A stretch of 49,686 nt of DNA from assembly GCF_006152145.1 (NCBI RefSeq), contig NZ_VDFV01000028.1:1-49686 (forward strand), written 5' to 3'. Every line of letters starts with the position of its first letter. Position 1 is the stretch's first letter. The stretch comes from Rubellimicrobium roseum. GTDB taxonomy: Bacteria; Pseudomonadota; Alphaproteobacteria; Rhodobacterales; Rhodobacteraceae. Shown in pieces: positions 11,807 to 39,774 of the stretch. Position numbers and translations under genes: made by a program. A model generated the notes under the pieces. The model was given only the letters and a program-made list of their open reading frames with translations, was not told the origin of the DNA and did not search any database.

Positions 11807-12601
11807 TTACGATCTATCGGCGAGCAGGGGGAGAAGGAGCGAGAACAGCTCGGCTTGAGAACTGATGCCGCAGCGACTGTAGAGTTGCTTACGAAAGACC
11901 TTCACGGTCTGAGCCGCGACATCGAGCCTCAAGGCGATCGAGGCAGTGGAATGTCCCCGCAGGATCAGAAGGGCGACCTCGGCCTGGCGGGGCGACAGAT
12001 GAATGCCATGCACTGTCCGAAGTGCCTGTATCAGCTGTGCGGCCACGTCCGGCCGGGGCGCGGACTGCATGGGAAGCGTCTCCCAATGCGACTCCGCGAG
12101 AGCGACGACAAGCGGCGCGAGCCTGTGACAAACCTCGATGTCTCGAGGGGAGAAGGGGCGGCCCGAGGACGCATCACGCCCGAGGCAGATGAACAGCGAC
12201 ACGTCCTGCGCGGGGTAGGCAATGTAGCTCAACTCATCGAGAAGCGTTGTCTGCTGGTAGTATTCAACGAAGTAGCGGCTGCGGTGGAAGGCGTCAGGCG
12301 CCACGTCCGTCAGCCGGTAAAGCCCGGCGGGCACATGGTTCAGGTGCAGTTCGTGATACGGGTCGAGAAGGTAGGCCCCGTCGAGGAAGATCGTCTCGAT
12401 CCGGGCAAAGACCTCCGGGCTCGTGGAATGGCGGTACAGGATCTCAGGCGAGGCCGAGTCGCGGTAGGCCAGGATGATGATGTTGTCGGGCGCCACGCAT
12501 CGGCAGAAGAAGTGCCATAGGGCGCTCTCGAACCCCGTCCGGCCCAGCCGTCGCACGACCTCGGCCAACTGACGCTCGGCCGAGTTGGGCAGCGCCTTCA
12601 T
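11807..12601 (-). CDS. LuxR-family transcriptional regulator
   Basis: This 264-aa regulator ends with a LuxR-type helix-turn-helix (about residues 200-255: LSPRQAEVALLILRGHS, then TVKVFRKQLYSRCGI). The N-terminal 180 residues form an unassigned sensor region rich in aromatic residues; the typical acyl-homoserine-lactone pocket motifs are not evident and no signal synthase gene is nearby. The ATG at 12601 is chosen because GGGAGG lies 8 nt upstream, rather than a TTG at 12640. It is divergent from the nine-gene amine operon across an 83-bp region with palindromes, so it probably controls that operon and itself. Confidence 0.85.
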   Translation of the reverse strand: MKALPNSAERQLAEVVRRLGRTGFESALWHFFCRCVAPDNIIILAYRDSASPEILYRHSTSPEVFARIETIFLDGAYLLDPYHELHLNHVPAGLYRLTDVAPDAFHRSRYFVEYYQQTTLLDELSYIAYPAQDVSLFICLGRDASSGRPFSPRDIEVCHRLAPLVVALAESHWETLPMQSAPRPDVAAQLIQALRTVHGIHLSPRQAEVALLILRGHSTASIALRLDVAAQTVKVFRKQLYSRCGISSQAELFSLLLPLLADRS

Positions 12602-12619
12602 CCCGTATACCTCCCGAGG

Positions 12620-12664
12620 GGTATATACCTCCTCGATCAATCTCGTACCTCTGGGAACGCCCAG
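12620..12664. promoter_or_regulatory. palindromes between the LuxR-type gene and the amine operon
   Basis: The 83-bp divergent region holds a perfect palindrome GGTATATACC (12620-12629), a nearby GTATAC (12605-12610), and an inverted repeat CTGGG-AACG-CCCAG (12651-12664) with GTACC/GGTA flanks. These are plausible operator half-sites for the divergent regulator. One also overlaps its leader, which would permit autoregulation. Confidence 0.5.
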
Positions 12665-12684
12665 AACAGGGGGTATGAGGTAGC

Positions 12685-13743
12685 ATGAAGGCCGCCATCG
12701 AGCTTCGTCAAGTTGTCAAGCGCTACGGGGCGACGACCGCGCTCCATGGGGTGACGCTCGAGATCGGGGACAACGAGTTCTTCACGCTGCTGGGACCGTC
12801 GGGCTGCGGCAAGACCACGCTGTTGCGGATGATCGCGGGCTTCGAGGATGTCACCGAGGGGCAGATCCTCCTGTTCGGAGAGGACATCTCGGGGCGGGAG
12901 CCGAACCGGCGGCCCGTGAACACCGTGTTCCAGCAATACGCCCTGTTTCCCCATATGTCGGTCATCGACAACGTGGCCTTCGGGCTCAAGATGAAGGGCA
13001 TGGACCTCGCGTCGCGCCGCCAGCGCGCGGGACGGATGCTGGAGATGGTGCACCTGTTGGCCTTTGCCGACCGCCTGCCGTCGCAGCTGTCGGGCGGGCA
13101 GCAGCAGCGGGTCGCGCTGGCCCGAGCGCTCGCGCCGGAGCCCAAGGTCCTCCTCCTCGACGAGCCGCTGTCGGCGCTGGACCTCAAGCTCCGTCAGGCG
13201 ATGCGGGTGGAGCTGAAGCAGCTCCAGGAGGAGACGGGTATCACCTTCGTCTTCGTCACCCATGACCAGGAGGAAGCGCTGACCATGTCGGACCGGATCG
13301 CGGTGATGAGCGCGGGTCGTGTCCAGCAGGTCGGCCCCCCGCGTGAGATCTACGAGGCGCCGGTGAACCGCTTCGTGGCCGATTTCATCGGCGAGACGAA
13401 CCTTCTGGAGGTCGAAGTCGAAGCCGTGGAGGGGGGCATGGCCCGCGTTGTCCTGCCGGGCGGGCACCGGATCGCCTGTCCCGCCGCCGCCGGCACCGCC
13501 GGGCGGCACCACCTGTCGATCCGGCCCGAGCGGCTGGCCATCGCGTCCCAGGGCGGCGAGATCGAGGCCACGGTGGAGCGGGTCGTGTATCTCGGCACCG
13601 ACCTCCAGATCATCACCCGGCTCGACGGCGGGGCGGCCTTCGACGTGCGGCTCCAGAACTCGGCGCGGGTCGCGGTGCCCGCGCCCGGCACGCGGGTCGG
13701 CCTACATCTGGAGGAAGGCGCTGCGCGCCTTCTGGCCGACTGA
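12685..13743 (+). CDS. polyamine-type ABC transporter ATP-binding protein (PotA-like)
   Basis: This 352-aa ATPase shows Walker [11 protein letters not shown]-loop QQYALF, signature LSGGQQQRV, Walker [13 protein letters not shown]-loop [14 protein letters not shown], and a C-terminal TOBE domain. The [15 protein letters not shown] and [10 protein letters not shown] stretches are typical of spermidine/putrescine importers. The ATG follows GAGG by 4 nt. It is the first gene of the operon; TGATG overlaps the next start. Confidence 0.93.
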
Positions 13744-14642
13744 TGGCGGCGCGACGGCCGGGCGAGCGGAGCCTTCTCGTCCCCCTCCTGCTGCCGACCT
13801 GGGCGATGATCGGCGTCTTCATGGTCCTGCCAGTGGGGGTCATGGCGCTCTATTCCTTCCTGACCCGTGAGTTCCGGGGCGGGGTGGACTGGACCTTCTC
13901 TCTCTCTGCGTACGACCAGTTCTTCTTCGACCGCGGCCTGTTCGGGGACGAGGCTCCCCGCCTCCAGTGGGCCTACATCTCCATCTTCTGGCGGTCGATC
14001 TGGCAGGCGGTCATCGCGACTGTCCTTTGCCTCCTCGTCGGGTTCCCGACGGCGTGGTTCATCGCGACGCGGCCCGCCCGCTCGCGCGGCGTATGGCTGT
14101 TCCTCATAACCGTGCCCTACTGGGTGAACCTGCTTATCCGCACGGTGTCGCTGCGGTTCCTGTTGCGCGATACCGGGCCCCTGAACCAGGGCCTGATGAG
14201 CCTCGGTCTCGTTGACGCGCCGCTGCCGGTGGTGAACACCAATCTCGCGGTGCAGCTTGGTCTTTTCTACAGCTACCTGCCCTTCATGGTGCTGCCGATC
14301 TACGCCGCCGTGGAGCGCTACAACTTCGCCCTGTCGGAGGCCGCGGCCGACCTTTACGCCAGCCGCTGGACGACCCTGAGGGAGATCGTGCTCCCGCTCG
14401 TCAAGCCCGGCATCGTCGCGGGGTGCCTTCTCGTCTTCGTGCCGTCGCTTGGCGCGTTCCTTGCGCCCGACCTCCTGGGAGGGGCCAAGACCTTCATGAT
14501 CGGCTCCCTCATCGACGAGCAGATCAAGGGCAGCCAGGGGAACTGGCCCTTCGGCGCAGCCGTGGCGGTCATCCTGATGACGCTGGTCCTGATCGCCCTG
14601 GTCGCCTACGCGCGGTCGGTGACGCGGGAGCGGTCGGCATGA
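13743..14642 (+). CDS. polyamine-type ABC permease (PotB-like)
   Basis: This 299-aa integral membrane protein has an N-terminal segment around residues 14-37, further helices, and an EAA-type loop ([20 protein letters not shown]). It belongs to the PotB/PotH group of the spermidine/putrescine family. Its start overlaps the ATPase stop and its stop overlaps the next permease start, indicating tight coupling. Confidence 0.92.
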
Positions 14643-15460
14643 AGGGTGTGCGTCATTACCCGGGCTTCACCGCCATCGCGCTCGGCTGCCTGTTGGTGCT
14701 CTACGCGCCCATGATCGTGGTGGGGATCTACAGCTTCAACGGCTCGACCTCTCTCACCACCTGGGGCGGGTTCTCGCTCCGCTGGTACGCCGACGTCTTT
14801 ACGGGGGAGGAGGCTGAGCGCTTTGGCATGGCCACCTGGAACTCGCTCACCATCGCGTTCATGGCCGCCACGGTCTCGACCGTCATCGCCACGGCCGCCG
14901 CGGTCGCGATGGTCCGGGGCGGGCGCTTCCGGGGGAAGGCGGGGACCTTCGCCCTCATCAACCTGCCGCTCATGGTACCCGAGATCGTCATCGCGGTCGC
15001 CACGCTGATCTTCTTTTCCACCATCGGGCTGGAGACCGGCTACCTCACGGTGCTGATCGCCCATGTCACGTTCTGCATCCCCTTTGCTTACCTTCCCATC
15101 TCGGCGCGTCTCCAAGGGATCGAGGGGACCTACGAGCAGGCGGCGCGCGACCTCTACGCGTCCCGCTGGCAGGCCTTCAGCCTGATCCTCTTGCCGCTGA
15201 TGGCGCCCGGGATCGTGTCGGGCTACCTCCTCGCCTTCATCATCTCGCTCGACGACTTCATCATTACGAACTTCGTCAAGGGCGCGGGGATGGAGACGCT
15301 GCCGACCGCCATCTTCGGATCGGTCAAGCAGGGGCTCAAGCCCAACATCATGGCCATCTCGACCATGCTCCTCGTGGTCTCGATCCTGTTCGTCACGCTC
15401 AGCTACCTCATCAACCGCAGGGGGCAGAAGACCCTCGTTCAGCAAGGAGATCGCGCATGA
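14639..15460 (+). CDS. polyamine-type ABC permease (PotC-like)
   Basis: This 273-aa partner permease starts with a hydrophobic helix ([20 protein letters not shown]), then has the PotC-like phrase YSFNGS, and an EAA loop [18 protein letters not shown]. The ATG at 14639 overlaps the previous stop; the longer frame that starts at 14423 lies within the preceding gene and is rejected. Its stop overlaps the binding-protein start at 15457. Confidence 0.92.
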
Positions 15461-16482
15461 AACGACTTCTCGGGGCCGTCGCCCTCTCGGCGCTCGCCTC
15501 GGCCGCCCAGGCCCAGGAGGAGCTGAAGGTCTACATCTTCTTCGAATACATCCCCCAGGAGCTGGTGGAGAAGTTCGAGGCCGAGACGGGCATCGACGTC
15601 ACGGTCGACACCTTCGACAGCAACGAGGCCATGCTCGCCGCGCTCAAAGCCGGGCGACTGGGCGAGTACGACGTGGCCGTGCCCGGCGACTACATGGTGG
15701 AGATCCTGCGAAACCAGGGCCTCGCAGACACCTTCACGCCCGAGGAGCTTCCGAACTTCGGCAACATCGACCCGCAATGGATCGACGTGCCCTTCGATCC
15801 GGGCCGAACCTCGTCCATCCCCTACCAGTGGGGCCTCACGGCCTTTGCGGTGAACCGCGACGTGTATCAGGGGCCCATCGATTCCCTGTCCATCATCTTC
15901 GATCCGCCGGAGGAGCTGTCGGGCCGCATCAACGTGCTCGACAGCCAGGGCGAGGTTCTGGCGCTCGCCTCCATGTATCTGGGCATCCCCCAATGCACGC
16001 AGGACCGCGACCAGCTCCGGGCGCTCAACGACATGCTTCAGGAGGCGCGCCAGCACTGGGCGTCCTTCGGGTCGGACACCTCCAAGGAGGTTCTGGTCTC
16101 GGGTGATGCGGCGGCGGGGATGATCTACAACGGCTTCGCCACCAAGGCCCGGGACGAGGGCGCGAACATCGAATACGCCTTCCCCAAGGAAGGGTCGGTG
16201 ATCTGGATGGACAACGTCGTCCTCCTCAGGGACGCGCCCAACCGCGATAACGCGCTCCGGTTCATGAACTTCCTCCTCGACCCGGAGAACGCGGGCGCGG
16301 TCACGAGCTATGCCGCCTATCAGGCCGGGGTGCTGGGCGCGGAGGAGTTCACCGACCCCGCGATCCGCGACTCGCCGGAGAACAACCCGCCCGAGAGCGT
16401 GAACCTAGGCGATTTCGTCATGGCCTGCGACGAGACCACCCAGGCCACCTATGACGCGATCTGGACCAACCTGAAACAGTGA
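15457..16482 (+). CDS. polyamine-type periplasmic binding protein (PotD/PotF-like)
   Basis: This 341-aa binding protein has a signal peptide cleaved near AQA-QEE (residue 20), followed by [21 protein letters not shown], in the position of the PotD NWxxYI phrase. In PotD/PotF the phrase carries Trp and Tyr residues that bind amino groups; here FFEYI replaces the usual NWxxY. The ligand may therefore be an amine other than putrescine or spermidine (inference). It is encoded last in the transporter set and followed by a strong hairpin. Confidence 0.9.
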
Positions 16483-16490
16483 GCCGAACC

Positions 16491-16517
16491 GCGCCGGGAC
16501 CCCTCCGGTCCCGGCGC
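16491..16517 (+). terminator. intercistronic hairpin after the first PotD-like gene
   Basis: A perfect 11-bp stem (GCGCCGGGACC with GGTCCCGGCGC) closes a 5-nt loop, 8 nt after the binding-protein stop. It separates the transporter genes from the catabolic genes, starting at 16565. There is no T-tract, so partial read-through is likely. Confidence 0.72.
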
Positions 16518-16564
16518 TCTCTGATGCCACAACGGCAGGGGCTTCGACCCTCGATGGAGGATTC

Positions 16565-17335
16565 ATGAAGATCGCCATCTGGCAGGACCGCTCCCCCTTG
16601 GGCGACACGGAGGCCGCGCTCGGTCGCCTGACCTCGGCCCTTGCCGCGGCGGGGGCCATGGGGGCCGCCACCCTTGTCGCGCCCGAGGTCTATTTTCCCG
16701 GCTACAACCAGCCCGACATCCCGGCCGCCGCCCTGGCCCGTGACGCGGCCGCGATCCGACGCCTGTCCGACGCCTGCCGTTCCGCGTGCTGCGGCCTCGT
16801 CGTAGGCTATGCCGAACGCGACGGCGACCGTCTCTGCAACAGCGCCCTCGCCCTCGACGCCCAAGGGCGCGAGGTCGCCAACTACCGCAAGATTCAGCTT
16901 TATGGCGCCCGCGAGAAGACGATTTATGCGCCGGGCGAGGGCTATGCCACGTTCGACCTCGGCGGCGTCCGCGCGGCGCTGCTCATCTGCTACGACGTGG
17001 AGTTCGCGCCCCACATCGCGGAGCTCGCGGCGCGCGGGGCGCAGGTCATTCTTGTCCCCACGGCGAACATGCACCCCTTCGTCCACGTCGTCCGCCACAC
17101 CGTCCCGGCCATGGCTGCAAACCACGGGGTCACTATCGCATATGCCAACTTCTGCGGCGACGAAGGAGACCTCCGCTACACCGGCGGGTCGCTCATCGTC
17201 GGACCGCACGGGGAGATCCTGGCCCAGGCGGGCGAGACTCCGGCGCTCCTCGTGGCCGAGATCCCCGATGCCGACCTGTCGCGCCTGTCCACCCAGGCCG
17301 CTGATCTAAGGAGAATGCCCGATGCCCAAGGATAG
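16565..17335 (+). CDS. nitrilase-superfamily amidohydrolase
   Basis: This 256-aa carbon-nitrogen hydrolase carries the Glu-Lys-Cys triad: Glu41 in APEVYFPGY, Lys109 in NYRKIQLYG and Cys142 in LLICYDVEF. These enzymes cleave amides, N-carbamoyl groups or nitriles; the length and motifs fit aliphatic amidase/N-carbamoyl-amine hydrolase types rather than true nitrilases. It probably acts in the cytoplasm on an amide or carbamoyl intermediate of the imported amine. The ATG has GGAGGATTC upstream. Its last 14 bases overlap the start of the next gene. Confidence 0.9.
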   Translation: MKIAIWQDRSPLGDTEAALGRLTSALAAAGAMGAATLVAPEVYFPGYNQPDIPAAALARDAAAIRRLSDACRSACCGLVVGYAERDGDRLCNSALALDAQGREVANYRKIQLYGAREKTIYAPGEGYATFDLGGVRAALLICYDVEFAPHIAELAARGAQVILVPTANMHPFVHVVRHTVPAMAANHGVTIAYANFCGDEGDLRYTGGSLIVGPHGEILAQAGETPALLVAEIPDADLSRLSTQAADLRRMPDAQG

Positions 17336-19415
17336 CCGCGACACCCGCTACGACATCCTGTTCGAGCCGATCCGCATCGGCCCGAAGGTCGCGAAGAACC
17401 GCTTCTACCAGGTGCCCCACTGCAACGGGGGCGGCTACCGCGACCCCTCCGCCGTGGCCGAGATGCGCCGGACCAAGGCCGAGGGCGGCTGGGGCGTCAT
17501 TTTCACCGAGCAGACCGAGATCCACCCCACCTCGGAGATCACCCCCTTCATCGAGCAGCACCTTTGGGAGGATCGCGACATTCCCGCTCTCGCGCGGATG
17601 GCCGACGCGATGAAGAGCCACGGGGCGCTGGCCGGGGTCCAGCTGGCCTATTCTGGTGTCAACGGACCCAACCTTTACTCGCGCGAGGTGCCCTTGGCCG
17701 TGAGCGGCGGACCGATCCTCACCTTCACCGCCGATCCCGTGCAGGCGCGCACCATCGACCGGGAGGACATCCGCGACATCCGCCGCTGGTTCCGCAACGC
17801 TGTCCGCCGGAGCCAGACCGCCGGTTTCGACCTCGTCTGCTTCTACGGGGCGCACGGCTTCGGCATCCTCCAGCACTTCCTGTCCCGCGCCACCAATCAG
17901 CGGACAGACGAATACGGCGGCTCGCTCGAGAACCGGGCGCGCTTCCTGCGCGAAATCGTCGAGGACGCCCGGGAGGAGACTAAGGGCGCGCTGGCCGTTA
18001 CGCTTCGCCTCTCCCTGCACGAGGCTGGCGCGATGGGCTTCTCCAACGCCGAGCTTCGAGACTTCATCGAGATGCACGGGGACCTTCCAGACCTTTGGGA
18101 CCTCGCCCACGGCACCTGGGAGCAATGCTCCGGAACGTCGCGCTTCAAGCCCGAGGCCGCGCAAGAAGATCTGGTCCGCGGGATCAAGGCTCTTACCACG
18201 CGGCCAGTCGTGGGAGTGGGCCGCTTCACCAGTGCCGACGAGATGGTGCGGCAGGTCCGCTCCGGCGTGCTCGACTTCATCGGCGCGGCACGGCCCTCCA
18301 TCGCGGACCCGTTCCTTCCCCGAAAGATCGAGGAGGGCCGCTTCGATGACATCCGCGAATGCATCGGCTGCAACATCTGCGTCAGTGGCGATATGACGGG
18401 CGGCATCTCGCGCTGTACGCAGAACACCGCCTTCATGGAGGAATGGCGAAAAGGCTGGCACCCTGACCGCGTGCGGCCCAAGGGTGTGTCCGAAACCGTG
18501 CTTGTCGTAGGCGCGGGTCCCACGGGGCTGGAAGCGGCCATGCAACTGGGACGGCGCGGCTACCGTGTGACACTGGCCGAGGCCTCCTCAGCCTTGGGCG
18601 GACGGGTGGCGCGCGAGCGGCGGCTGCCTGGACTGTCCGCCTGGGGCCGCGTGGCCGACTACCGGACGGGCCAGATCACGCCCATGCCGAATGTGGAGAT
18701 CTACCTCGAAAGCGCGCTCACACCCGAGGACGTGCTGTCCCTGGGCTGCGAGCACGTCGCCATCGCTACGGGCGCGGAATGGCGGCGCGATGCGGTCGCG
18801 CGGTTTCACCTCGCCCCCATCCCGACCGACCCGGCCCTACCGGTCTACACGCCCGACGACCTCATGGCGGGGCAGGGACCTACCGGCGGGCGGGTGATGC
18901 TGTATGACGACGACCATTTCTACATGGGCTCGGTTTTGGCCGAGATGCTGGTTGCGCGGGGCTGCGCGGTCGATTTCGTCACGCCGGCGGCCATCGTCGC
19001 GGACTGGACGCGCAACACGCTGGAGCAGCCGACGATCCAGCGCCGTCTTTTGGAGATCGGCGTGACGCTGCACCTGTCGAGGGCCCCGCTGTCCGTCGGC
19101 CCCGACCGGGCGATCTTGGCCTGCACTTATACGGGGAGCGAGAGCGTCCTGGCTGCCGACGCGGTGGTCATGGTCACCTCGCGGCTGCCCAAGGACGGCC
19201 TCTACCATGCGGTGCGGGCGCTCGACTGGCCGGGGGCCGGGATTCGAAGCGTGAAGCTGATCGGCGATGCCGCCGCGCCCGGGCCCATCGCCTGGGCCAC
19301 TTACGCGGGCCGCCGCTACGCCGAGGAGCTCGACGAGCCGGATCGTGGCGACGCGCTGTCGTTCCGGCGCGAGATCGCGGAACTGCTGCCCCACGTGCCC
19401 CTCACCCCGGCCTGA
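17322..19415 (+). CDS. trimethylamine dehydrogenase-like Fe-S flavoprotein
   Basis: This 697-aa protein matches the TMADH/DMADH family over its whole length: an FMN-binding TIM barrel (residues 1-330), a [4Fe-4S] region with Cys347, Cys350, Cys353 and Cys365, and a C-terminal NAD/FAD-like module beginning VLVVGAGPTGLEAA. Cys34 (VPHCNGGG) matches the cysteine that attaches covalently to FMN in TMADH, and Tyr175/His178 in FYGAH match its catalytic pair. By my alignment TMADH Tyr60 is Gln64 here and Trp355 is Asp357, so the aromatic cage for trimethylamine is lost. A different secondary or N-methylated amine is likely; N-methylproline demethylases are also relatives. AAGGAG lies 7 nt before the ATG. 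Confidence 0.9.
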   Translation: MPKDSRDTRYDILFEPIRIGPKVAKNRFYQVPHCNGGGYRDPSAVAEMRRTKAEGGWGVIFTEQTEIHPTSEITPFIEQHLWEDRDIPALARMADAMKSHGALAGVQLAYSGVNGPNLYSREVPLAVSGGPILTFTADPVQARTIDREDIRDIRRWFRNAVRRSQTAGFDLVCFYGAHGFGILQHFLSRATNQRTDEYGGSLENRARFLREIVEDAREETKGALAVTLRLSLHEAGAMGFSNAELRDFIEMHGDLPDLWDLAHGTWEQCSGTSRFKPEAAQEDLVRGIKALTTRPVVGVGRFTSADEMVRQVRSGVLDFIGAARPSIADPFLPRKIEEGRFDDIRECIGCNICVSGDMTGGISRCTQNTAFMEEWRKGWHPDRVRPKGVSETVLVVGAGPTGLEAAMQLGRRGYRVTLAEASSALGGRVARERRLPGLSAWGRVADYRTGQITPMPNVEIYLESALTPEDVLSLGCEHVAIATGAEWRRDAVARFHLAPIPTDPALPVYTPDDLMAGQGPTGGRVMLYDDDHFYMGSVLAEMLVARGCAVDFVTPAAIVADWTRNTLEQPTIQRRLLEIGVTLHLSRAPLSVGPDRAILACTYTGSESVLAADAVVMVTSRLPKDGLYHAVRALDWPGAGIRSVKLIGDAAAPGPIAWATYAGRRYAEELDEPDRGDALSFRREIAELLPHVPLTPA

Positions 19416-19430
19416 CCCAAGGAGGTTCCG

Positions 19431-20927
19431 ATGCTCGACCATTCTCACGACTCGTGGAAGGCCAAGGCCCAGGCGCTCCGCTTCCGCCATCGGGCCTTCA
19501 TCGGAGGTCGCTTCGTTGATGCAGCAGGGGGCGGCACCTTCGACAGCATCAACCCGGCCACCGGCGAGGTGCTGGCCCAGGTCGCTGCCTGCGAGGCGGA
19601 GGACGTTGACCGGGCGGTGGTCGCCGCGCGCCGGGCCTTCGACTCCGGCGTCTGGTCTCGCGCCGCGCCGTCCCACCGCAAGGGGGTCCTGCTGAGGCTC
19701 GCCGGGCTGATCCGCGACAACCTCGAGGAGCTGGCCCTGCTCGACTCGCTCGATATGGGCAAACTGGTGAAGGATGCGGCGACCATCGACGTGCCCGGAT
19801 CGGCTGGCATCTTCCAGTGGTATGCCGAAGCCATCGACAAGCTTTACGACGAGGTCGCGCCGACGGGGCAGGGAGACCTCGCGCTCGTGCGGCGGGTGCC
19901 CCTGGGGGTCGTGGGGGCGGTGGTGCCCTGGAATTTCCCCCTCGACATGGCGACCTGGAAATGCGCGCCGGCGCTCGCCGCCGGGAACTCGGTCGTGCTC
20001 AAGCCCGCGGAGCAGTCGCCCCTGTCGGCATTGCGTCTGGCGGAGCTGGCCGCCGAGGCCGGTGTGCCGGAGGGCGTGCTGAACGTCGTGCCGGGACTCG
20101 GCGCGACCGCCGGCCGGGCGCTGGGCCTCCATGGGGACGTGGACTGCCTCGCCTTCACGGGGTCCACCGCCACCGGCAAGCTCTTCATGCAGTATTCGGG
20201 CCAGTCCAACCTCAAGCCGGTCTGGCCCGAGACGGGGGGCAAGAGCCCGAACCTCGTCTTCGCGGATTGCGACAACCTCGACCGGGCCGCGGACATGGCG
20301 GCCTTCGGGATCTTCTTCAACCAGGGTGAGGTCTGCTCGGCCAACTCGCGGCTCTACGTGGAGCGATCCATCCGCGACGCCTTCGTCGAGAAGTTGGTGG
20401 AGCGCGCAGAGGCGGCCCAGCCCGGCGATCCGCTCGACCCCGCCTCGCGCATGGGCGCCATCGTGGACGAGCGGCAGACCCGGAAAATTATGAGCTTCAT
20501 CGAGGGAGGCCGCGCGACGGCGCGCCTCGTGACCGGGGGGGAGCGGGTGAGCGTGGATGGCCGCGGCTGCTTCGTCGCTCCCACGATCTTCGAGGATGTG
20601 CGCCCCGACGACCCACTGGCGCGGGAGGAGATCTTCGGGCCGGTGCTGGCCGTGGTCCCTTTCGACACGGAGGAGGAGGCCGTGCGGATGGCGAACGACT
20701 CGCTCTATGGCCTCGCTGCTTCGGTCTGGACCGATGACCTGGGCCGCGCGCTGCGGGTGTCAGATGCGCTGCATGCAGGCACCGTATCCGTGAACACGGT
20801 GGATGCCCTTTCGGTGGGGACACCCTTCGGTGGCATGAAGCAGTCGGGCTTCGGGCGGGACCTGTCGTTGCATTCGCTCGACAAATACACCGCGCTCAAG
20901 ACGGTCTGGATCAAGTACGGCGCGTGA
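19431..20927 (+). CDS. aldehyde dehydrogenase (PuuC-like)
   Basis: This 498-aa NAD(P)-dependent aldehyde dehydrogenase has Asn168 in PWNFP, cofactor Lys191 in LKPAEQSP, the general base Glu267 in PETGGKSP and catalytic Cys302 in NQGEVCSA. It resembles gamma-glutamyl-gamma-aminobutyraldehyde dehydrogenases of polyamine breakdown. It probably oxidises the aldehyde released by the amine dehydrogenase encoded 15 nt upstream. AAGGAGG lies 6 nt before the start codon. Confidence 0.94.
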   Translation: MLDHSHDSWKAKAQALRFRHRAFIGGRFVDAAGGGTFDSINPATGEVLAQVAACEAEDVDRAVVAARRAFDSGVWSRAAPSHRKGVLLRLAGLIRDNLEELALLDSLDMGKLVKDAATIDVPGSAGIFQWYAEAIDKLYDEVAPTGQGDLALVRRVPLGVVGAVVPWNFPLDMATWKCAPALAAGNSVVLKPAEQSPLSALRLAELAAEAGVPEGVLNVVPGLGATAGRALGLHGDVDCLAFTGSTATGKLFMQYSGQSNLKPVWPETGGKSPNLVFADCDNLDRAADMAAFGIFFNQGEVCSANSRLYVERSIRDAFVEKLVERAEAAQPGDPLDPASRMGAIVDERQTRKIMSFIEGGRATARLVTGGERVSVDGRGCFVAPTIFEDVRPDDPLAREEIFGPVLAVVPFDTEEEAVRMANDSLYGLAASVWTDDLGRALRVSDALHAGTVSVNTVDALSVGTPFGGMKQSGFGRDLSLHSLDKYTALKTVWIKYGA

Positions 20928-20930
20928 AAA

Positions 20931-22106
20931 ATGGACAGCCTCGACATCCTCGCCCGGCTTTTGGCGCATGACAGCGTGAGCCGGAATCCGAACCGCGCCC
21001 TGGTGGACGAGGTGGCGGCACTCCTGCGCGGGGCGGGGCTAGATCCGGTGATCCTGCCCGATGCCTCGGGCGGCAAGGCGAGCCTCTTCGTGACGGTCGG
21101 CCCCGCCGACCGCGCCGGGGTCATGCTGTCGGGGCACACCGATGTCGTCCCTGTGGAGGGGCAGGCCTGGACCGTACCACCCTTCGCGCTCACCCGGCGG
21201 GATGGGCGCCTCTACGGACGCGGGACCGCGGACATGAAGGGCTTCGTCGCCTGCGCGCTGCGGGCCGTGCTGGACGCCGCGCATCGCCCCTTGCGCACGC
21301 CCCTGCACCTCGCGCTGTCCTATGACGAGGAGCTGGGCTGTCTCGGCGTGGGCTCCCTGATCGGGATGCTCTCCCAGGCCCCGCAGCGCCCCCTCCTCTG
21401 CATTGTGGGGGAGCCCACGTCCATGCAGGTTGCCACCGGGCACAAGGGCAAGATCGCGCTTCGGGCCACCTGCACGGGGCGAGAGGCGCATTCCGCCCTC
21501 GCCCCGCTCGGCCTCAACGCCATCCACCTCGCGGCCGATCTCCTGTCCCGGCTCCGCGCGTTGCAGGAGCGGCTGGAGCGCGAGGGGTCGAGGGACGCCG
21601 ACTACGACGTGCCCTACACGACCGTACATGCGGGCCGCATCGACGGGGGCGTCGCGCTCAACATCGTGCCGAACCGCTGCATTCTGGACTTCGAGATTCG
21701 CAACGTGGTGGAAGACGACCTCTCCGCGCTCGTAGCCGATCTGCGCGCAGAGGCCGCAACCATCGCCCAGGCAGCTCGCACCCACGCGCCGGAGGCCAGC
21801 ATCGCGATCGAGGAGCTGTTCTCCTATCCGGGCCTGGGGACGCCCACGGATGCCGGGGCCGTGCGCTTCGTGCAGTCGCTCACGGGTGCCAACGGGACGA
21901 TCAAGGTGGCCTTCGGGACCGAGGGCGGGCTCTTCTCCGAGCGGCTGGGCGTGCCCACGGTGATCTGCGGCCCGGGCTCCATGGCACAGGGGCACAAGCC
22001 CGACGAATACGCCACCGAGGAACAGATCGCCCGCTGCGACGCCATGCTTTCGCGGCTGCTTGATCGGTTGGAGGCCGGGCTCGACCAGATACCGGACGCC
22101 GCCTGA
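20931..22106 (+). CDS. M20 amidohydrolase (acetylornithine deacetylase-like)
   Basis: This 391-aa enzyme has M20 metallopeptidase motifs: His69 and Asp71 in SGHTDVVP, the bridging Asp101 in GRGTADMKG, and the Glu133-Glu134 pair in YDEELGC. The family removes N-acyl groups from amino acids such as N-acetylornithine. Lying 3 nt after the aldehyde dehydrogenase gene, far from any arginine-biosynthesis gene, it more likely deacylates an N-acyl amino acid made by this pathway (inference). Confidence 0.9.
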   Translation: MDSLDILARLLAHDSVSRNPNRALVDEVAALLRGAGLDPVILPDASGGKASLFVTVGPADRAGVMLSGHTDVVPVEGQAWTVPPFALTRRDGRLYGRGTADMKGFVACALRAVLDAAHRPLRTPLHLALSYDEELGCLGVGSLIGMLSQAPQRPLLCIVGEPTSMQVATGHKGKIALRATCTGREAHSALAPLGLNAIHLAADLLSRLRALQERLEREGSRDADYDVPYTTVHAGRIDGGVALNIVPNRCILDFEIRNVVEDDLSALVADLRAEAATIAQAARTHAPEASIAIEELFSYPGLGTPTDAGAVRFVQSLTGANGTIKVAFGTEGGLFSERLGVPTVICGPGSMAQGHKPDEYATEEQIARCDAMLSRLLDRLEAGLDQIPDAA

Positions 22107-22260
22107 GGCGGAGCCGGGCCGGGGCAGGCGAGGCCTGGGTGCCGACACGGCAATGGCGGACATGGCGGGCGGCGAGGTCTTGGCAGGAGGCCTGACGATG
22201 TGCGGCATTCCTTCCGTTATGGCACGGAATTTTTGGATGGCAGGTTAACGGCCCCACCGA

Positions 22261-23190
22261 TCAGTCCGTCCGGACGCCCGGAATCGACGTCGGGGTGACG
22301 AGCGCGCGGCAATGGGCCTCGAAGGCGTCGGTGACGCGGGTGGGGCGAATCCCCTGGAGCCGCGCCATCCCGAGGCGAAGCGCGCGGGGCCCCCCCGAGA
22401 GCGGGCGGTAGACCAGCGGCTTGCCGTCCGGCGCGAGCTCGGATGCCGGCCGGACGTTCACCAGAAGGAAGCCGAAGCCGTTGGCGACCATGGACCGCGC
22501 AAGCGCCATGTCCCGCGTGCGCTCCGCGATGCGGGGAGCGAGGCCCTCTGGTCCGAAGGCCGAGAGGAAATAGGCGGTGCTTCCGGGCAGATCGAGCAGA
22601 ATCATCGGGTGGTCGGCGAGGTCGGCGGGCGTCACGGCGGGGCGACGGACCAGCGGGTGGTCGGGGGGCAGCGCGACATGGGGCGGGATGGGGGCGAGGG
22701 GCTCGAACCCGATGCCGGGCGGCACGTCGAGGTCGTAAGTCAAGCAAAGGTCGAGGGTGCCTTGCCGCAGTCCCTCCATGAGGCCCGCGTGGTCGCCCTC
22801 CACCTGCCGGACCTCGACCTCGGGGTGCTGGAGTTCGAAGCGGGCGCGCAGTTCAGGCAGGACCAGGGCAGAGAAGCTGGACAGGCAGCCGATGGACAGG
22901 GGGCCCGACACGCTGGAGCGCAGGTCGGCGGCGAGGACCACGACCCGTTCGGCCTGTCGGAGCGCGTCGCGAGCTGCCCCGACGATCCGGTGCCCCCCGG
23001 GCGTGAGCGCCAGGCCATGCGCGTGGCGCCTGTGGAAAAGTTGGACGCCGAGCTCGGCCTCGAGTTGGGCGACGGCGGTCGAGATCGACGGGGCTGAGAT
23101 GTGGAGCCGCTGGGCCGCCTGGGCGATCGATCCTTCCTCGCCTACGGCGACGAGGTATTCCAGTTGGCGGAGGGTGACTCGGAGGGCCAT
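22261..23190 (-). CDS. LysR-family transcriptional regulator
   Basis: This 309-aa regulator has an N-terminal LysR helix-turn-helix (LRQLEYLVAVGEEGSIAQAAQRLHISAPSISTAV, residues 7-40) and a PBP2-like effector domain. The ATG at 23190 starts directly before the conserved helix; the longer frame to 23226 adds 12 residues without support. It is the last gene of a same-strand run behind the DUF1028 gene (39 nt gap) and convergent with the M20 gene, so it may control either amine module. Confidence 0.9.
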   Translation of the reverse strand: MALRVTLRQLEYLVAVGEEGSIAQAAQRLHISAPSISTAVAQLEAELGVQLFHRRHAHGLALTPGGHRIVGAARDALRQAERVVVLAADLRSSVSGPLSIGCLSSFSALVLPELRARFELQHPEVEVRQVEGDHAGLMEGLRQGTLDLCLTYDLDVPPGIGFEPLAPIPPHVALPPDHPLVRRPAVTPADLADHPMILLDLPGSTAYFLSAFGPEGLAPRIAERTRDMALARSMVANGFGFLLVNVRPASELAPDGKPLVYRPLSGGPRALRLGMARLQGIRPTRVTDAFEAHCRALVTPTSIPGVRTD

Positions 23191-23229
23191 GGCCCCGGTT
23201 GTCCCGCGAAGCGCGGCGGGGCTCAAGCC

Positions 23230-23904
23230 TCAGGGATCGCCGGGAACGCCATAGGAGGGAGACGCGGAGGGGTCGAGCGCCCGCTGGACATAGGCGCCCA
23301 TCTGCGGACGGTACACGGCCCAGGCTGTGCCAAGGGCGGCGATGGGGTCATCCTCCGTCCAGTCAATGCGGAGGTCGGCCAGGGGCCAGGGCTGGTCGTC
23401 GACGAGGAGGAGCCCCGCGGAATGGACCGGCCCGGCCTCGCCGCCTGAATCCCGTCCGGCCGTTAGGGCCACCATCAGCCGGTCCCCTAGATGGCCTTGT
23501 GAGCCGTCGAAGGCGTCGAGCATGGCCTGGGGGACGCCCTCGTGGGACAGGAGGTTCCCGCCTGCCACCGCGTCCCGTCCCCTCGCCTCGGACCAGAGGC
23601 CGAGCGCGTGGACTCCCGAATGGATGGCCGGGGGGCCGTCGGTGCCGACCGCGAGAACCTGCCGCCACTCCATCGCTGCGCCGCCGCGCCTCAGGATCAC
23701 GACGGCCTCCTCGGCGGTGGCGCCCTTCGCCATGAGGTCGAGGGCGCGCGGGCCGAGGCGAGGGTCGGTAACGTTCTGGCTGGCGACCGCGCCCACGCCG
23801 GCGCGGGCATGGGCGCATCGGGCCGCGACCGCGGGGGAGGAGGACGAGATCACCATCCCGAACATAACGGTGCGGGCGCAGCGCGCGACAAGGGAGAAGG
23901 TCAT
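23230..23904 (-). CDS. DUF1028 family protein
   Basis: This 224-aa protein begins MTFSLVARCARTVMFGMVISSSSPAVAAR and continues GVGAVASQNVTDPRLGPRALDLM, hallmarks of DUF1028, an Ntn-hydrolase-like fold of unproved function often found beside RidA and peptidase genes. The family's conserved serines follow the first strand. It starts 4 nt after the RidA stop, so the two are co-translated and probably in one pathway. Confidence 0.88.
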   Translation of the reverse strand: MTFSLVARCARTVMFGMVISSSSPAVAARCAHARAGVGAVASQNVTDPRLGPRALDLMAKGATAEEAVVILRRGGAAMEWRQVLAVGTDGPPAIHSGVHALGLWSEARGRDAVAGGNLLSHEGVPQAMLDAFDGSQGHLGDRLMVALTAGRDSGGEAGPVHSAGLLLVDDQPWPLADLRIDWTEDDPIAALGTAWAVYRPQMGAYVQRALDPSASPSYGVPGDP

Positions 23905-23908
23905 GACC

Positions 23909-24322
23909 CTAGTCCGGGATCACGGCGGTGGCGTCGATCTCCACCAGCCAGTTCGGGCGCGCCAGCGCCACCACGACGAGGCCCGTGGAGACGTAATGGA
24001 TGCCGGGCAGCATCTCGCCTAAGGTCCGGTAGACCGGCTCGCGGTGGCGCACGTCGGTCAGGTAGATCACGAGCTTGCAGATGTGCTCGGGCTTCGCGCC
24101 GGCTTCGGAGAGGAGCTGGAGGATGTTGTCCACCGCCTTGCGCGTCTGTTCGGCCGGATCGTGGCTGTCGATGTCGCGCCCGGTGTCGAGGTCCTGCGGG
24201 CACTGGCCGCGCAGGAACACGGTCGTCCCCCGCGCCACCACGGCATGAGCGAGGTCGTTGGACAGGCGTTGTTCAGGGTAGGTGTCGCGGGTGTTGAAGG
24301 GGCGGATCCGGGTATGGGCCAA
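23909..24322 (-). CDS. RidA-family protein
   Basis: The product (about 137 aa) has the RidA/YjgF/UK114 fold signatures: VFLRGQCPQDLDTG, a central helix TRKAVDNILQLLSEAGA and ending WLVEIDATAVIPD. RidA proteins hydrolyse reactive enamine/imine intermediates or act as related deaminases. The TTG at 24322 is chosen because GAGGA lies just upstream and it clears the monooxygenase stop; the frame also extends to 24385 inside that gene. The family's usual substrate-binding arginine is not obvious near the C-terminus, so it may be a divergent subgroup. Confidence 0.85.
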   Translation of the reverse strand: MAHTRIRPFNTRDTYPEQRLSNDLAHAVVARGTTVFLRGQCPQDLDTGRDIDSHDPAEQTRKAVDNILQLLSEAGAKPEHICKLVIYLTDVRHREPVYRTLGEMLPGIHYVSTGLVVVALARPNWLVEIDATAVIPD

Positions 24323-24338
24323 GGGGTCCTCGTGACGG

Positions 24339-25583
24339 TCAGGCGGTGAGCGGCGCGGGCGCGCGGGCGGCGATGCGATCGGCAATCTCGCCCGCGTCCC
24401 GCCAAGCGCCCCAGATGAAAGCGGAGCCGCGGCAGGTCAGCCAGGGGAGGCCCACGAACCAGAGCCCCGGCTGGGGGGAGGCGCCGCGGTCGTGGACGGG
24501 CCTGCCGGCCGCGTCGAAGGTGCCGGCCTTGAGCCAGCCGAAGTCGAAGGCGTAGCCGGTGGCCCAGATGATGGAGTGGATGCCGGCCGCCTGGAGGTCG
24601 AGGTCGAGGATCGGCTGGGACAGGCAGGCCGGGTCGGGAAAGGTGCGGCGCGCCTCGGCGTCCTCGGGGAGGTCGAGGCCGTGACGCGCGGCATGGGCGT
24701 CGGCTTCGTCGAGGACCGACAGGTAGTTCGCGTCGCCCCTCGCGATGTTAACCGCTAAGTCGGGGGCGAGGCGGAGGCGCCCGTCCGAGAAGCCCTCGGC
24801 GCGGCCGAGGAGGGTGATGCCCTCGTTTCCGAGGCGGCGGAAATCGATGGTCTCTCCTCCGCGGGCGCCGGAGACGGCGATGGTGACATGCTCTGTCCCG
24901 GGGGTGCGGGCTCGGGCGTCCCACTTGCCGAGAGCGCCGAGCCACCATGTGAAGTCGCGGCCCCGGTAGCGGCGGGGCGGACGGTCGTGGGGGCCTACGC
25001 AGAGATGGACGGCCCGGCCGGCGCGGTTCAGCTCGTCGGCGATCTGGGTGCCCGACGAGCCGGCGCCGACCACGAGGACGCCGCCTGCGGGGAGCTGGTC
25101 CGGGTTCCGGTAGGCAGCGGAGTGTATCTGAAATGGAACGGCGTCGCGCGGGACGAAGTCTGGCACGATGGGCCGCTGGAAGGGACCGGTGGCCGCCACA
25201 AGGTTTCGCACCTCGATAGGTCCCGCGGTCGTCTCGATGCGGAAACCCGCGCCCGAGGGCAGGGGACGTGCCTCGGTCACCTCGACGCCGCAGTGGATCG
25301 GGGCGGCGATGCGTGCGGCGAAGCATTCGAAGTAGGCGACGATCTGGTCCTTGGAGGCGAAAGCGTCGGGATCGAGGCCGTCGAACTCTTGCGCGGGGAA
25401 GCGATCGTGCCAGGCGGGGCCATTCGCCACGAGGGAGTCCCAGCGCTCCGACCGCCACCGTTCCGCTATCCGCTGCCGTTCCAAGACGAGGTGGGGCCGT
25501 TCGAGCCGGCCCAGATGCGCGCTCACGGCCAGACCGGCCTGACCGGCCCCGATGATGAGGGTCTCGACCTCTTCCACTGACAT
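24339..25583 (-). CDS. flavin-dependent monooxygenase (FMO/CzcO-like)
   Basis: This 414-aa protein has an FAD Rossmann motif GAGQAG (residues 12-17), an NADPH motif GAGSSG near residue 170, and the ATGY motif (WATGYAFDF) near residue 345. It belongs to class B flavin monooxygenases, which oxygenate amines, sulfides or ketones in the cytoplasm. It heads the four-gene run FMO-RidA-DUF1028-LysR. An amine N-oxygenation or oxidative step producing an imine for RidA is a reasonable but unproved role. Confidence 0.86.
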   Translation of the reverse strand: MSVEEVETLIIGAGQAGLAVSAHLGRLERPHLVLERQRIAERWRSERWDSLVANGPAWHDRFPAQEFDGLDPDAFASKDQIVAYFECFAARIAAPIHCGVEVTEARPLPSGAGFRIETTAGPIEVRNLVAATGPFQRPIVPDFVPRDAVPFQIHSAAYRNPDQLPAGGVLVVGAGSSGTQIADELNRAGRAVHLCVGPHDRPPRRYRGRDFTWWLGALGKWDARARTPGTEHVTIAVSGARGGETIDFRRLGNEGITLLGRAEGFSDGRLRLAPDLAVNIARGDANYLSVLDEADAHAARHGLDLPEDAEARRTFPDPACLSQPILDLDLQAAGIHSIIWATGYAFDFGWLKAGTFDAAGRPVHDRGASPQPGLWFVGLPWLTCRGSAFIWGAWRDAGEIADRIAARAPAPLTA

Positions 25584-26976: not shown

Positions 26977-28002
26977 ATGATCGCACGATTGGCTGGACTC
27001 GCCTTTCTGGCCTCCACCACGGCGCTTGCGGCGCAGGACGCCGGCACGCTCGCGCTCTACAACTGGGGCGACTACATCAACCCCGAGGTCCTCCAGCGCT
27101 TCACGGAAGAGACGGGGATCGAGGTGACGCTGGACACCTACTCCTCGAACGAGGAGATGCTGGCCAAGATCCAGGCGGGCGCCACTGGCTACGACATCGT
27201 CTTCCCGTCCGTCCACATGCAGGACATCATGCTCCAGCTCGGCCTGCTGGAGCGGACGGGCATCAACGAGAGCCCGAGCTTCGCCAATATCGACCCGGCC
27301 TTCCTGCGCTCGTCCCAGGACCCCAACGGCGAGTACTGCCTGCCCTATGCCTGGGGAACGGTGGGCATCTACTACAACGAGGACGTGACCGGACCCATCG
27401 CCGGCTGGGAGGATTTCTTCGCCATCCCCGAGCGGACCGGCGGCAAGATCAGCCTGCTCGACGACATGCGCGAGGTCATGGCGATCGGCCTCATCATGAC
27501 CGGCGCCTCGGTCAACTCGGCCGACCCGGCCGAGATCCAGGCCGCAACCGACTACATCCTGTCCCACAAGGAAGACGTGACCGCCTTCACCTACGAGAGC
27601 ATGGCGCTGATGTCCTCGGGGGATCTGGCTGCGGCGCATTTCTTCGTGGGCGGCAACGTGTTCTTCACCGAGACGCCGAACATCAAGTACGTCATCCCCG
27701 CCGAGGGCGGCACGATGTACCAGGAGAACATCTGCGTCCTCGCCTCGGCGCCGAACAAGGAGGCGGCCATGCGCTTCCTCGAGTTCTACCTCCAGCCCGA
27801 GATCGCGGCCCTGAACGTGGCGCAGCAGTTCAACGGCACGCCCAACGTCCCCGCCAACGAGCTCACGCCGGAGTTCATCCAAGGGAACCCCAACATCAAC
27901 GTGCCCCCCGAGACGATGGAACGTCTCCAGATATTCGAGGACCTGGGTGCCGCGCTGCGCGCCTATGACCGCGCCTGGAATACCATCCGGACTGTGCAGT
28001 GA
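26977..28002 (+). CDS. polyamine-type periplasmic binding protein (PotD-like), second system
   Basis: This 341-aa binding protein has a short signal peptide (to about residue 19, ALAAQ) followed by LALYNWGDYINPEVLQRFTEETG, the canonical PotD/PotF start with NWxxYI. A second ligand-contact region is visible in LPYAWGTVGIYYN. It should bind a positively charged amine or peptide in the periplasm. It heads the operon and is followed by a hairpin. Confidence 0.92.
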   Translation: MIARLAGLAFLASTTALAAQDAGTLALYNWGDYINPEVLQRFTEETGIEVTLDTYSSNEEMLAKIQAGATGYDIVFPSVHMQDIMLQLGLLERTGINESPSFANIDPAFLRSSQDPNGEYCLPYAWGTVGIYYNEDVTGPIAGWEDFFAIPERTGGKISLLDDMREVMAIGLIMTGASVNSADPAEIQAATDYILSHKEDVTAFTYESMALMSSGDLAAAHFFVGGNVFFTETPNIKYVIPAEGGTMYQENICVLASAPNKEAAMRFLEFYLQPEIAALNVAQQFNGTPNVPANELTPEFIQGNPNINVPPETMERLQIFEDLGAALRAYDRAWNTIRTVQ

Positions 28003-28011
28003 GACAGAGGA

Positions 28012-28033
28012 GGGCGGCCTTGGAAGGCCGCCC
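28012..28033 (+). terminator. intercistronic hairpin after the second PotD-like gene
   Basis: A perfect 9-bp stem (GGGCGGCCT with AGGCCGCCC) closes a 4-nt loop TGGA, 9 nt after the stop codon and 18 nt before the ATPase start. It is placed like the hairpins after the other binding-protein genes in this window. Confidence 0.7.
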
Positions 28034-28051
28034 GTGCGACCGGGGGCTTCG

Positions 28052-29122
28052 ATGACGGCACTTCTCGAGATCCGCGGGGCGCGGCGGCGCTTCGCCACGC
28101 CCGAAGGGGGCCATATCGCCGCTCTCGACGGCGTAGACCTTGATGTCGGGGGCAACGAGTTCGTCACGCTCCTGGGCCCATCCGGCTGCGGCAAGACCAC
28201 GCTTCTTCGCGCCATCAGCGGCTTCGAGCAGCTCGATGGGGGCTCCGTCCGGCTCGATGGCGCGGATCTCGGAGCGCTGCCGCCCTTCCGGCGGCCTTTG
28301 AACACGGTATTCCAGAGCTATGCCCTGTTCGGGCACATGACGGTGGCGCGGAACGTGGGCTACGCACTCGAGGTCCGGGGCGTGGACCGCGCGACCTACG
28401 AGCGGGAGGTGGGCCAAGCGCTGGAGAAGGTCGGCCTGTCGGGGATGGGCGCGCGCAAGCCCTCTCAGCTTTCGGGCGGGCAACGGCAGCGGGTGGCCCT
28501 GGCACGGGCGATCGTCGCGAAGCCCAGGCTCCTCCTGCTCGACGAACCGCTGTCGGCGCTCGACCGCAACCTGCGCCAGCAGATGCAGCTCGAGCTCAAG
28601 GACCTCCAGCACCGCCTGGGCATCGCCTTTGTCTTCGTGACCCACGACCAGGAGGAGGCGCTGACGATGTCCGACCGCGTGGTCCTGATGCGTGCAGGCC
28701 GGATCGAGCAGCAGGGCAGCCCCCGCGACATCTACCGCCGCCCTCGCAGCCGCTTCGTGGCCGAGTTCATCGGCGAGACCAACCTTTTCTCCATCACGGT
28801 CGAGCGGATCGAAGGCGGGCTCGCGGTCGGGCGCACGGCACAGGGCCTCGCGCTGTGGCTTCCGGCGGCGGGCCTGCGGCCGGGGCAATCGGCCGTGGCC
28901 GCGCTCCGGCCGGCCGACTTCACGCTAGAGGACGGCGACATCGCGGGTCAGGTCTCGCGATCGGTCTACTTGGGCTCGGACCTGCACCTCTTCGTCAGGC
29001 CCAACGCGGGCGGCCCCGAGATCCGCGTCACCGCGCGCGACCGGGCAGGGGCCCCGGAGGTGGGGACGCCGGTCAGCCTCGGCTACGATCCCGCCGCGGC
29101 CCATGTCTTGGAGGAGGCGTGA
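28052..29122 (+). CDS. polyamine-type ABC ATP-binding protein (PotA-like), second system
   Basis: This 356-aa ATPase has Walker [10 protein letters not shown], signature LSGGQRQRV, Walker [12 protein letters not shown] and the TOBE domain starting near FIGETNLFSI. The ATG at 28052 is chosen at the start of similarity; the upstream extension to 27947 lies within the binding-protein gene. The stop overlaps the next start (TGATG). Confidence 0.92.
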   Translation: MTALLEIRGARRRFATPEGGHIAALDGVDLDVGGNEFVTLLGPSGCGKTTLLRAISGFEQLDGGSVRLDGADLGALPPFRRPLNTVFQSYALFGHMTVARNVGYALEVRGVDRATYEREVGQALEKVGLSGMGARKPSQLSGGQRQRVALARAIVAKPRLLLLDEPLSALDRNLRQQMQLELKDLQHRLGIAFVFVTHDQEEALTMSDRVVLMRAGRIEQQGSPRDIYRRPRSRFVAEFIGETNLFSITVERIEGGLAVGRTAQGLALWLPAAGLRPGQSAVAALRPADFTLEDGDIAGQVSRSVYLGSDLHLFVRPNAGGPEIRVTARDRAGAPEVGTPVSLGYDPAAAHVLEEA

Positions 29123-30000: not shown

Positions 30001-30003
30001 ACG

Positions 30004-30840: not shown

Positions 30841-30841
30841 T

Positions 30842-33341: not shown

Positions 33342-33354
33342 GGATGTCCTTCCC

Positions 33355-34716: not shown

Positions 34717-34773
34717 CCGAGCCTCCCTGGTCCGGAAGCGATAAAAGCTTCGCTTCGGTTCTGCAATCTCAAA

Positions 34774-34796
34774 CTTATGTTGAAGATAGGCATAAG
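34774..34796. promoter_or_regulatory. inverted repeat in the ROK/sugar-operon divergent region
   Basis: CTTATG (34774-34779) and CATAAG (34791-34796) form a perfect 6-bp inverted repeat with an 11-nt AT-rich spacer, between the ROK start and the isomerase start. Nearby tandem GTAACAAC motifs (about 34843-34858) may also matter. It is a candidate ROK operator. Confidence 0.5.
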
Positions 34797-34889
34797 GTGG
34801 CCGGCATATGCTCCATAAAGGTTGACCTGATCCGATTCGCGACGTAACAACCGTAACAACGGGACAACGAAGCGGGGGGAGGCGCCGAG

Positions 34890-35702: not shown

Positions 35703-35748
35703 CGGCCCAACATCCCCGGCATCGCCGGGTCTCTGGGAGGAGACGACA

Positions 35749-36870: not shown

Positions 36871-36878
36871 TCCCTGCC

Positions 36879-36907
36879 AGCGGGCGGACATGAACGATCC
36901 GCTCGCT
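36879..36907 (+). terminator. hairpin after the RbsB-like gene
   Basis: AGCGGGCGGA pairs with TCCGCTCGCT (10 bp with one G-U pair) around a 9-nt loop, 8 nt after the stop codon and 26 nt before the oxidoreductase gene. No T-tract follows. Confidence 0.55.
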
Positions 36908-39767: not shown

Positions 39768-39774
39768 GGCAATG

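Follow-up and report, generated by a model that had tools for sequence, protein, structure and literature searches.

Two convergent operons around a histamine dehydrogenase-clade enzyme form a probable histamine-catabolism cluster in Rubellimicrobium roseum

We found that two convergent operons in the 4.85 Mb draft genome of Rubellimicrobium roseum very probably form a cluster for the catabolism of histamine. They lie on contig NZ_VDFV01000028.1, of which a stretch of 49,686 nucleotides was analyzed; this whole stretch is called the window in the following. The cluster comprises a Pot-type importer, a flavoprotein of the histamine dehydrogenase (HDH) clade, an aldehyde dehydrogenase (ALDH) and a core of four genes, which encode a flavin monooxygenase, a RidA family protein, a DUF1028 protein and an M20 hydrolase. 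A preliminary description of this DNA had placed an amine-degradation operon at 12685-22106, and these coordinates are exact: eight open reading frames fill 12685-22106 on the + strand, and the gaps between consecutive genes (-1, -4, -4, +82, -14, +15 and +3 bases) are so tight that a single operon is likely. The families named there (Pot-like importer, amidase, PuuC-like ALDH, M20) agree with our assignments by Pfam and NCBIfam profiles and PDB sequence matches. While all genes listed there are present, the region was drawn too narrowly, because a second operon of the pathway follows in convergent orientation (22261-25583, - strand; LysR, DUF1028, RidA and flavin monooxygenase by Pfam) and a LuxR-type regulator gene diverges from the first one. 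The roles proposed below are named after the Hin pathway, in which, according to excerpts of PMC8231116, HinABCDFLHGIJK of Pseudomonas putida U convert histamine to aspartate. The genes are:

11807-12640, - strand: LuxR-type regulator, divergent from the import operon (C-terminal GerE helix-turn-helix, PF00196 only)
12685-13743, + strand: PotA-like ABC ATPase of the presumed histamine importer (above the TIGR01187 cut-off; linked to HDH in relatives)
13743-14642, + strand: PotB-like permease (below the NCBIfam equivalog cut-off; 1-base overlap with PotA)
14639-15460, + strand: PotC-like permease (below the NCBIfam equivalog cut-off; 4-base overlap with PotB)
15457-16482, + strand: PotD-like periplasmic binding protein, presumed histamine receptor (194 bits to an E. 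coli-type PotD chain in the PDB; below the NCBIfam equivalog cut-off; homologues linked to HDH in relatives)
16565-17335, + strand: nitrilase-fold amidase, a C-N hydrolase (PF00795; 14-base overlap with the HDH gene)
17322-19415, + strand: HDH-clade flavoprotein (PDB matches, pocket residues, tree)
19431-20927, + strand: ALDH, presumed HinD role (PF00171; best NCBIfam match PuuC, below cut-off)
20931-22106, + strand: M20 hydrolase of the acetylornithine-deacetylase-like family, presumed N-formyl-L-aspartate deformylase, HinG role (TIGR01892 and NF005710, above cut-off)
22261-23226, - strand: LysR-type regulator, HinK-like (PDB matches; homologues in HDH neighbourhoods)
23230-23904, - strand: DUF1028 protein, presumed HinH role in ring opening or amide hydrolysis (PF06267, 202 bits)
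23909-24385, - strand: RidA family protein, presumed HinL role as enamine/imine deaminase (PF01042; the listed TTG start gives a 47-base overlap with the monooxygenase, and the real start is probably downstream)
24339-25583, - strand: flavin monooxygenase, presumed imidazole-4-acetate monooxygenase, HinF role (PF13738; conserved with RidA and DUF1028)

The 697-residue oxidoreductase in the middle of the first operon scores 1072 bits against 6DE6, the HDH of Rhizobium sp., 835 bits against 3K30, the HDH of Nocardioides simplex, 671 bits against 6l6j and 490 bits against trimethylamine dehydrogenase (TMADH). Its earlier label "TMADH-like" therefore names the right superfamily but is imprecise. 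Over the N-terminal ~410 residues the identity is 73.5% to 6DE6 and 60.4% to 3K30. We compared 18 active-site and tunnel residues named for the Rhizobium enzyme in PMC10180351, leaving out Leu567, which also belongs to the tunnel, and found the same residue at 17 positions; only Asp265 is exchanged, for Gln268. Gln60, Ile69, Phe72, Glu74, Asn110, Phe176, Trp263 and Asp354 are all as in Rhizobium HDH, Cys34 aligns with its flavin-linked Cys30, and the [4Fe-4S] motif CIGCNIC...C starts at Cys347. In a tree of 41 rows, built from the N-terminal ~410 residues, the window enzyme and 6DE6 share a 32-row clade (support 100/100), inside which an 11-row subclade with the window enzyme (100/99; the other loci are L034, L039, L044, L045, L047, L050, L051 and L060-L062, where L and, below, G numbers are our handles for loci and genomes) is sister to a 21-row subclade with 6DE6 (98/96). 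3K30 falls outside the 32-row clade and within a 36-row clade (100/99), where it sits on a long branch and its exact place is weak (86/45). From these data we conclude that the window enzyme belongs to the HDH clade and, judged by its sequence, is expected to work like an HDH, while we do not claim an identical catalytic machinery.

A nicotine, stachydrine/N-methylproline or trimethylamine-type pathway with a TMADH-family demethylase would draw on the same superfamily; the 6-hydroxypseudooxynicotine oxidase of strain S33 is reported to be 46-48% identical to HDHs, and the N-methylproline demethylase HpbA lies near one Paracoccus cluster. However, TMADH scores under half of the 6DE6 bits, and 6l6j ("Oxidored_FMN domain-containing protein" in the match table), which we take, unverified, to be a nicotine-pathway enzyme, has no flavin-linked Cys and departs from Rhizobium HDH at 12 of the 18 compared positions. 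As a contrast case, no core gene is annotated in the neighbourhood of a 51% HDH homologue of S. meliloti. On the PDB scores, the pocket residues and this neighbourhood we rejected the trimethylamine, stachydrine and nicotine pathways, and a demethylase route is highly improbable. The preliminary description was also right that this is not the Puu, spermidine or trimethylamine pathway: the dehydrogenase is of the HDH clade, and the markers PuuA, PuuB, spermidine dehydrogenase and true TMADH do not occur among the eight genes.

The gene neighbourhoods point in the same direction. Across 99 related genomes, the window's own excluded, the monooxygenase (counted, like DUF1028, at at least 58% identity) is present in all 17 genomes with an HDH-clade enzyme (at least 65% identity) vs 16/82 others (p ~2e-10; our p-values treat genomes as independent and are uncorrected for relatedness). 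This would make sense if HDH produced imidazole-4-acetaldehyde or a related compound. No association with the monooxygenase (4/15) is seen for the 15 genomes whose only HDH-like proteins are of lower identity and which were kept out of the HDH count; weaker matches likewise left out of the counts concern the monooxygenase in 6, DUF1028 in 2, the amidase in 2 and a peptidase S58 family protein, described below, in 6 of 100 genomes. DUF1028 occurs in 16 of the 17 HDH genomes (G073 is without), and monooxygenase and DUF1028, found in 33 genomes each, are together in 32. HDH and monooxygenase lie within ~10 kb of each other in 14/17 genomes, and the 17 HDH neighbourhoods (L060-L076) contain RidA and DUF1028 in 13, LysR (at least 46% identity) and parts of the Pot importer in 11 each, M20 in 10, the amidase in 6 and ALDH in 4 cases. 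Gene order is reshuffled among the relatives and there is another Pot-type operon in the window, as might be found if unrelated amine and amino-acid genes were grouped by chance or merely by regulation; yet with the same families recurring around HDH at these frequencies, such a grouping is barely credible.

A scan of named genomes was queried with the monooxygenase, so that adjacency to it is given by construction and the 14/17 above is the unbiased value. It yielded 31 loci, of which two weak ones (L058, L059) were dropped. The remaining 29 contain RidA and DUF1028 in 21, DUF1028 only in 1 and, within the fetched stretch, neither in 7 (L032, L033, L035, L037, L038, L040, L043). HDH is present in seven loci, all of which also have the amidase, RidA and DUF1028. 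Homologues of the LuxR-type regulator (46-66% identity) stand in 10 loci with HDH; its AlphaFold model is poor (pLDDT 59). As a side observation, a Rieske ring-hydroxylating oxygenase is found near the monooxygenase in seven loci (L031, L034, L036, L055, L057, L063, L072). Rubellimicrobium rubrum, the nearest named relative found (monooxygenase 91% identical), keeps monooxygenase, RidA, DUF1028, LysR and M20 at 88-96% identity in locus L029. There, at 12400-14400, the start of the ALDH gene looks decayed and the LuxR gene is a fragment only; beside this ALDH gene we found no HDH, amidase or own-type importer gene.

Plasmids carry the same genes. Of 19 plasmid records with 60-80% HDH identity we viewed seven (Shinella, Haematobacter, Leisingera, R. 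gallicum, Ideonella, Paracoccus and Roseateles), and all of them have at least one core gene next to HDH or elsewhere on the plasmid, such as the monooxygenase ~42 kb away in Shinella or monooxygenase and DUF1028 ~10-11 kb away in Ideonella. On R. gallicum pRgalIE4872d, whose record carries no annotation, our own calling of open reading frames gave the order monooxygenase-LysR-ALDH-HDH-RidA-DUF1028-M20-PotABC-binding protein. The HDH between ALDH and RidA has 98.5% identity (411 residues) to 6DE6, and therefore a near-identical relative of the crystallised enzyme sits in the cluster. The Leisingera cluster adds an aspartate ammonia-lyase, the HinI step. The order monooxygenase-RidA-DUF1028-M20 is found on five further plasmids viewed (Klebsiella, Burkholderia, Streptomyces, Arthrobacter and Pseudonocardia), with an aspartate ammonia-lyase after M20 in Arthrobacter and Pseudonocardia, while an Acetobacter plasmid has the same core families in a different order. 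What stands beside the core varies: copper amine oxidase and aldehyde dehydrogenase nearby on the Arthrobacter plasmid, elsewhere GMC oxidoreductase, ALDH and cytosine permease, or amidase and Amidohydro_3 with a Pot importer. We infer that these varied sets are alternative entry modules. DUF1028 genes of this type are carried by many enterobacterial plasmids: of 240 records that match the Burkholderia protein, 105 are from Klebsiella; on the one Klebsiella plasmid viewed (L087) the full core adjoins GMC oxidoreductase, ALDH and cytosine permease.

The LysR-type regulator has its best PDB matches in 6m5f (196 bits) and 3fzv (195 bits), both listed as "Probable transcriptional regulator", the next one reaching 106 bits. 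We take 6m5f to be HinK of P. aeruginosa, which a paper search did not confirm. The Hin pathway of P. putida U and P. aeruginosa is the work of de la Torre 2018, used here as related in parts of PMC8231116 and PMC6467879. Excerpts of the latter describe HinF as an FAD-monooxygenase (EC 1.14.13.5), HinL as an enamine deaminase, HinH as an amidase, HinG as an amidase of EC 3.5.1.8 and HinI as an aspartate ammonia-lyase. By these enzyme types and by gene order, monooxygenase, RidA, DUF1028 and M20, which form a linked set in the window and stand in F-L-H-G order on plasmids elsewhere, presumably match HinF-L-H-G, the route from imidazole-4-acetate to aspartate. The preliminary description had called the pathway undescribed and had set against its own claim a neighbourhood survey that would show a characterised pathway. 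The survey was run, and the conserved neighbourhoods show the gene types of the characterised histamine pathway; with a dehydrogenase of the HDH clade and conserved neighbours of the hin type, the word "undescribed" is not supported.

In the pathway that we propose, histamine would enter through the PotABC-type ABC importer and its dedicated binding protein, and the HDH-clade enzyme would convert it into imidazole-4-acetaldehyde and ammonia, passing the electrons to an acceptor, probably ETF, whose genes are present in the genome. ALDH would then furnish imidazole-4-acetate, the ring of which the HinF-like flavin monooxygenase would hydroxylate. DUF1028 (HinH-like) and RidA (HinL-like), in an order that we can only suggest, would open the ring and remove nitrogen to give N-formylaspartate, and the HinG-like M20 hydrolase would cleave the latter into formate and aspartate. 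The HinK-like LysR regulator probably senses imidazole-4-acetate, and for the LuxR-type regulator, too, a ligand is presumed. What the data show directly is gene order, families, conserved linkage and the clade to which phylogeny and pocket residues assign the dehydrogenase; every substrate, the electron acceptor, the order of the DUF1028 and RidA steps and the ligands of both regulators belong to the proposal. The chemistry given in the preliminary description holds in outline: a cationic amine would be imported and cleaved oxidatively at a C-N bond to an aldehyde, which would be oxidised to an acid before hydrolases act. M20, however, most likely deformylates N-formylaspartate at the end of the pathway rather than removing an acyl group from the incoming amine.

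Several observations weigh against this assignment. The case for equivalence with Hin is built on enzyme types as described, on the order of the genes and on their clustering, not on direct sequence comparison, and the Hin scheme has no place for the amidase. The cluster contains no HinI aspartate ammonia-lyase gene; the genome's only long aspA match lies elsewhere, is below the curated cut-off and is possibly a fumarase. Of 24 further HDH genomes examined, 5 have an ALDH homologue (69-81% identical) and 19 have none as close as 69%, and the monooxygenase is 1.8 Mb from HDH in G034 and on another contig in G041 and G056. A further point concerns Asp265, which is replaced in 11/11 rows of the window's subclade (8 Ala, 1 Ser, 1 Glu and, in the window, 1 Gln) and kept in all 20 fetched relatives of 65-70% identity. 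It is the third triad residue of Rhizobium HDH, for which a saturation screen gave no active substituted clones, as stated in PMC10180351. Despite its loss, the pocket residues printed for the subclade are otherwise kept. Even the two characterised HDHs disagree here, since 3K30 has Gly in this column and Asp one residue on. The natural loss of the triad aspartate offers a direct test of the mechanism of the HDH family.

The loss of the triad aspartate would also fit a front end for another amine (agmatine, a diamine or an imidazole amine with an acyl or amide group), with only the downstream core belonging to the imidazoleacetate pathway. Pot-type importers classically import polyamines, and the HDH gene overlaps that of an amidase foreign to the Hin scheme. 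Characterised HDHs also oxidise agmatine and diamines, with side activity toward 1,3-diaminopropane, at lower rates (excerpts of PMC10180351). We nevertheless regard this alternative as quite unlikely, given that the remaining 17 compared positions equal Rhizobium HDH, that the ring-cleavage monooxygenase accompanies every HDH-clade enzyme and that the amidase follows the monooxygenase instead of HDH: 11 of the 12 amidase-carrying genomes also have the monooxygenase, and among monooxygenase-positive genomes amidase and HDH are unassociated (p 0.46). A role for the amidase in the core is therefore more likely than one with the dehydrogenase.

The amidase itself is about 36% identical to its nearest solved structure, the Nesterenkonia NitN amidase, and its structure model matches only general amidases and carbamoylases among the best 50 matches listed. 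Glu41, Lys109 and Cys142, which we take to be the catalytic triad, are invariant across 7 aligned sequences. A role as substitute for M20 was rejected, because 8/9 subclade genomes without a local M20 carry a 66-68% homologue elsewhere (G024, G034, G101-G106); the ninth, G068, which is 76% complete, gave no M20 match. ALDH of at least 69% identity is present in 1/15 amidase-positive vs 5/10 amidase-negative genomes (two-sided p 0.02, uncorrected; own genome included), and 5/25 have neither at these thresholds, which is only suggestive of a replacement of ALDH by the amidase.

Another possibility, which we consider doubtful, is that the route from imidazoleacetate to aspartate is a modular core (monooxygenase, RidA, DUF1028, M20) with interchangeable entries and that the window represents an undescribed amidase-coupled HDH branch without the triad aspartate, which would use a modified imidazole amine or pass its product to the amidase. 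An example would be acyl- or beta-alanyl-histamine, freed by the amidase or by an S58 aminopeptidase (30842-31912). The gene for the latter, a peptidase S58 family protein (PF03576) that presumably belongs to the DmpA/beta-aminopeptidase family, follows a second Pot-type importer at 26977-31912 (+ strand). That it cleaves beta-alanyl-histamine is a guess. Homologues of at least 61% identity exist in 7/99 related genomes, six of them HDH-positive and all seven monooxygenase-positive, and none was found in the loci searched. Further downstream, 32325-42411 is probably a separate sugar/polyol uptake operon, in which Pfam identifies an ABC ATPase and a xylose-isomerase-like TIM barrel; from the look of the translations we take other products to be a regulator, binding proteins, a permease and a Gfo/Idh-type dehydrogenase.

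Returning to histamine catabolism as the preferred assignment, we note that the enzymes and the pathway are already known, while HDH, a dedicated Pot-type importer and a Hin-like core in one locus are a combination of which we found no description in the open-licence papers searched. The cluster places the histamine dehydrogenase employed for histamine detection in food in a genomic context, and from it we predict that many Rhodobacteraceae and some rhizobia take up histamine by a dedicated system and degrade it fully. It also suggests functions for genes annotated in the records viewed as DUF1028, RidA, "NAD(P)/FAD-dependent oxidoreductase" and "acetylornithine deacetylase".

Compared with the known systems, the window enzyme shares the clade and nearly the whole pocket with the HDHs 6DE6 and 3K30, but differs from Rhizobium HDH by Gln268 at the Asp265 position and by its place in a sister subclade. 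Like the Hin pathway as described, the cluster has a presumed core of FAD-monooxygenase, enamine deaminase and two amidases, an aldehyde dehydrogenase and a LysR regulator. Unlike Hin, which starts with the aminotransferase HinC, imports through the permease HinA and is spread over four regions, the window uses a flavin/4Fe-4S dehydrogenase and a Pot-type ABC importer in one locus, with an extra amidase and a LuxR-type regulator; neither HinC nor HinA was found in 11807-25583, the rest of the genome not being searched. For cheese Brevibacterium, excerpts of PMC6467879 report growth on histamine and a putative pathway with homologues of HinD, F, G, H, I and L. Genes with presumed HinD, F, G, H and L roles are also present in the window, whereas the first enzyme proposed there is a copper histamine oxidase or a HinC-like aminotransferase, together with a HinA-type permease.

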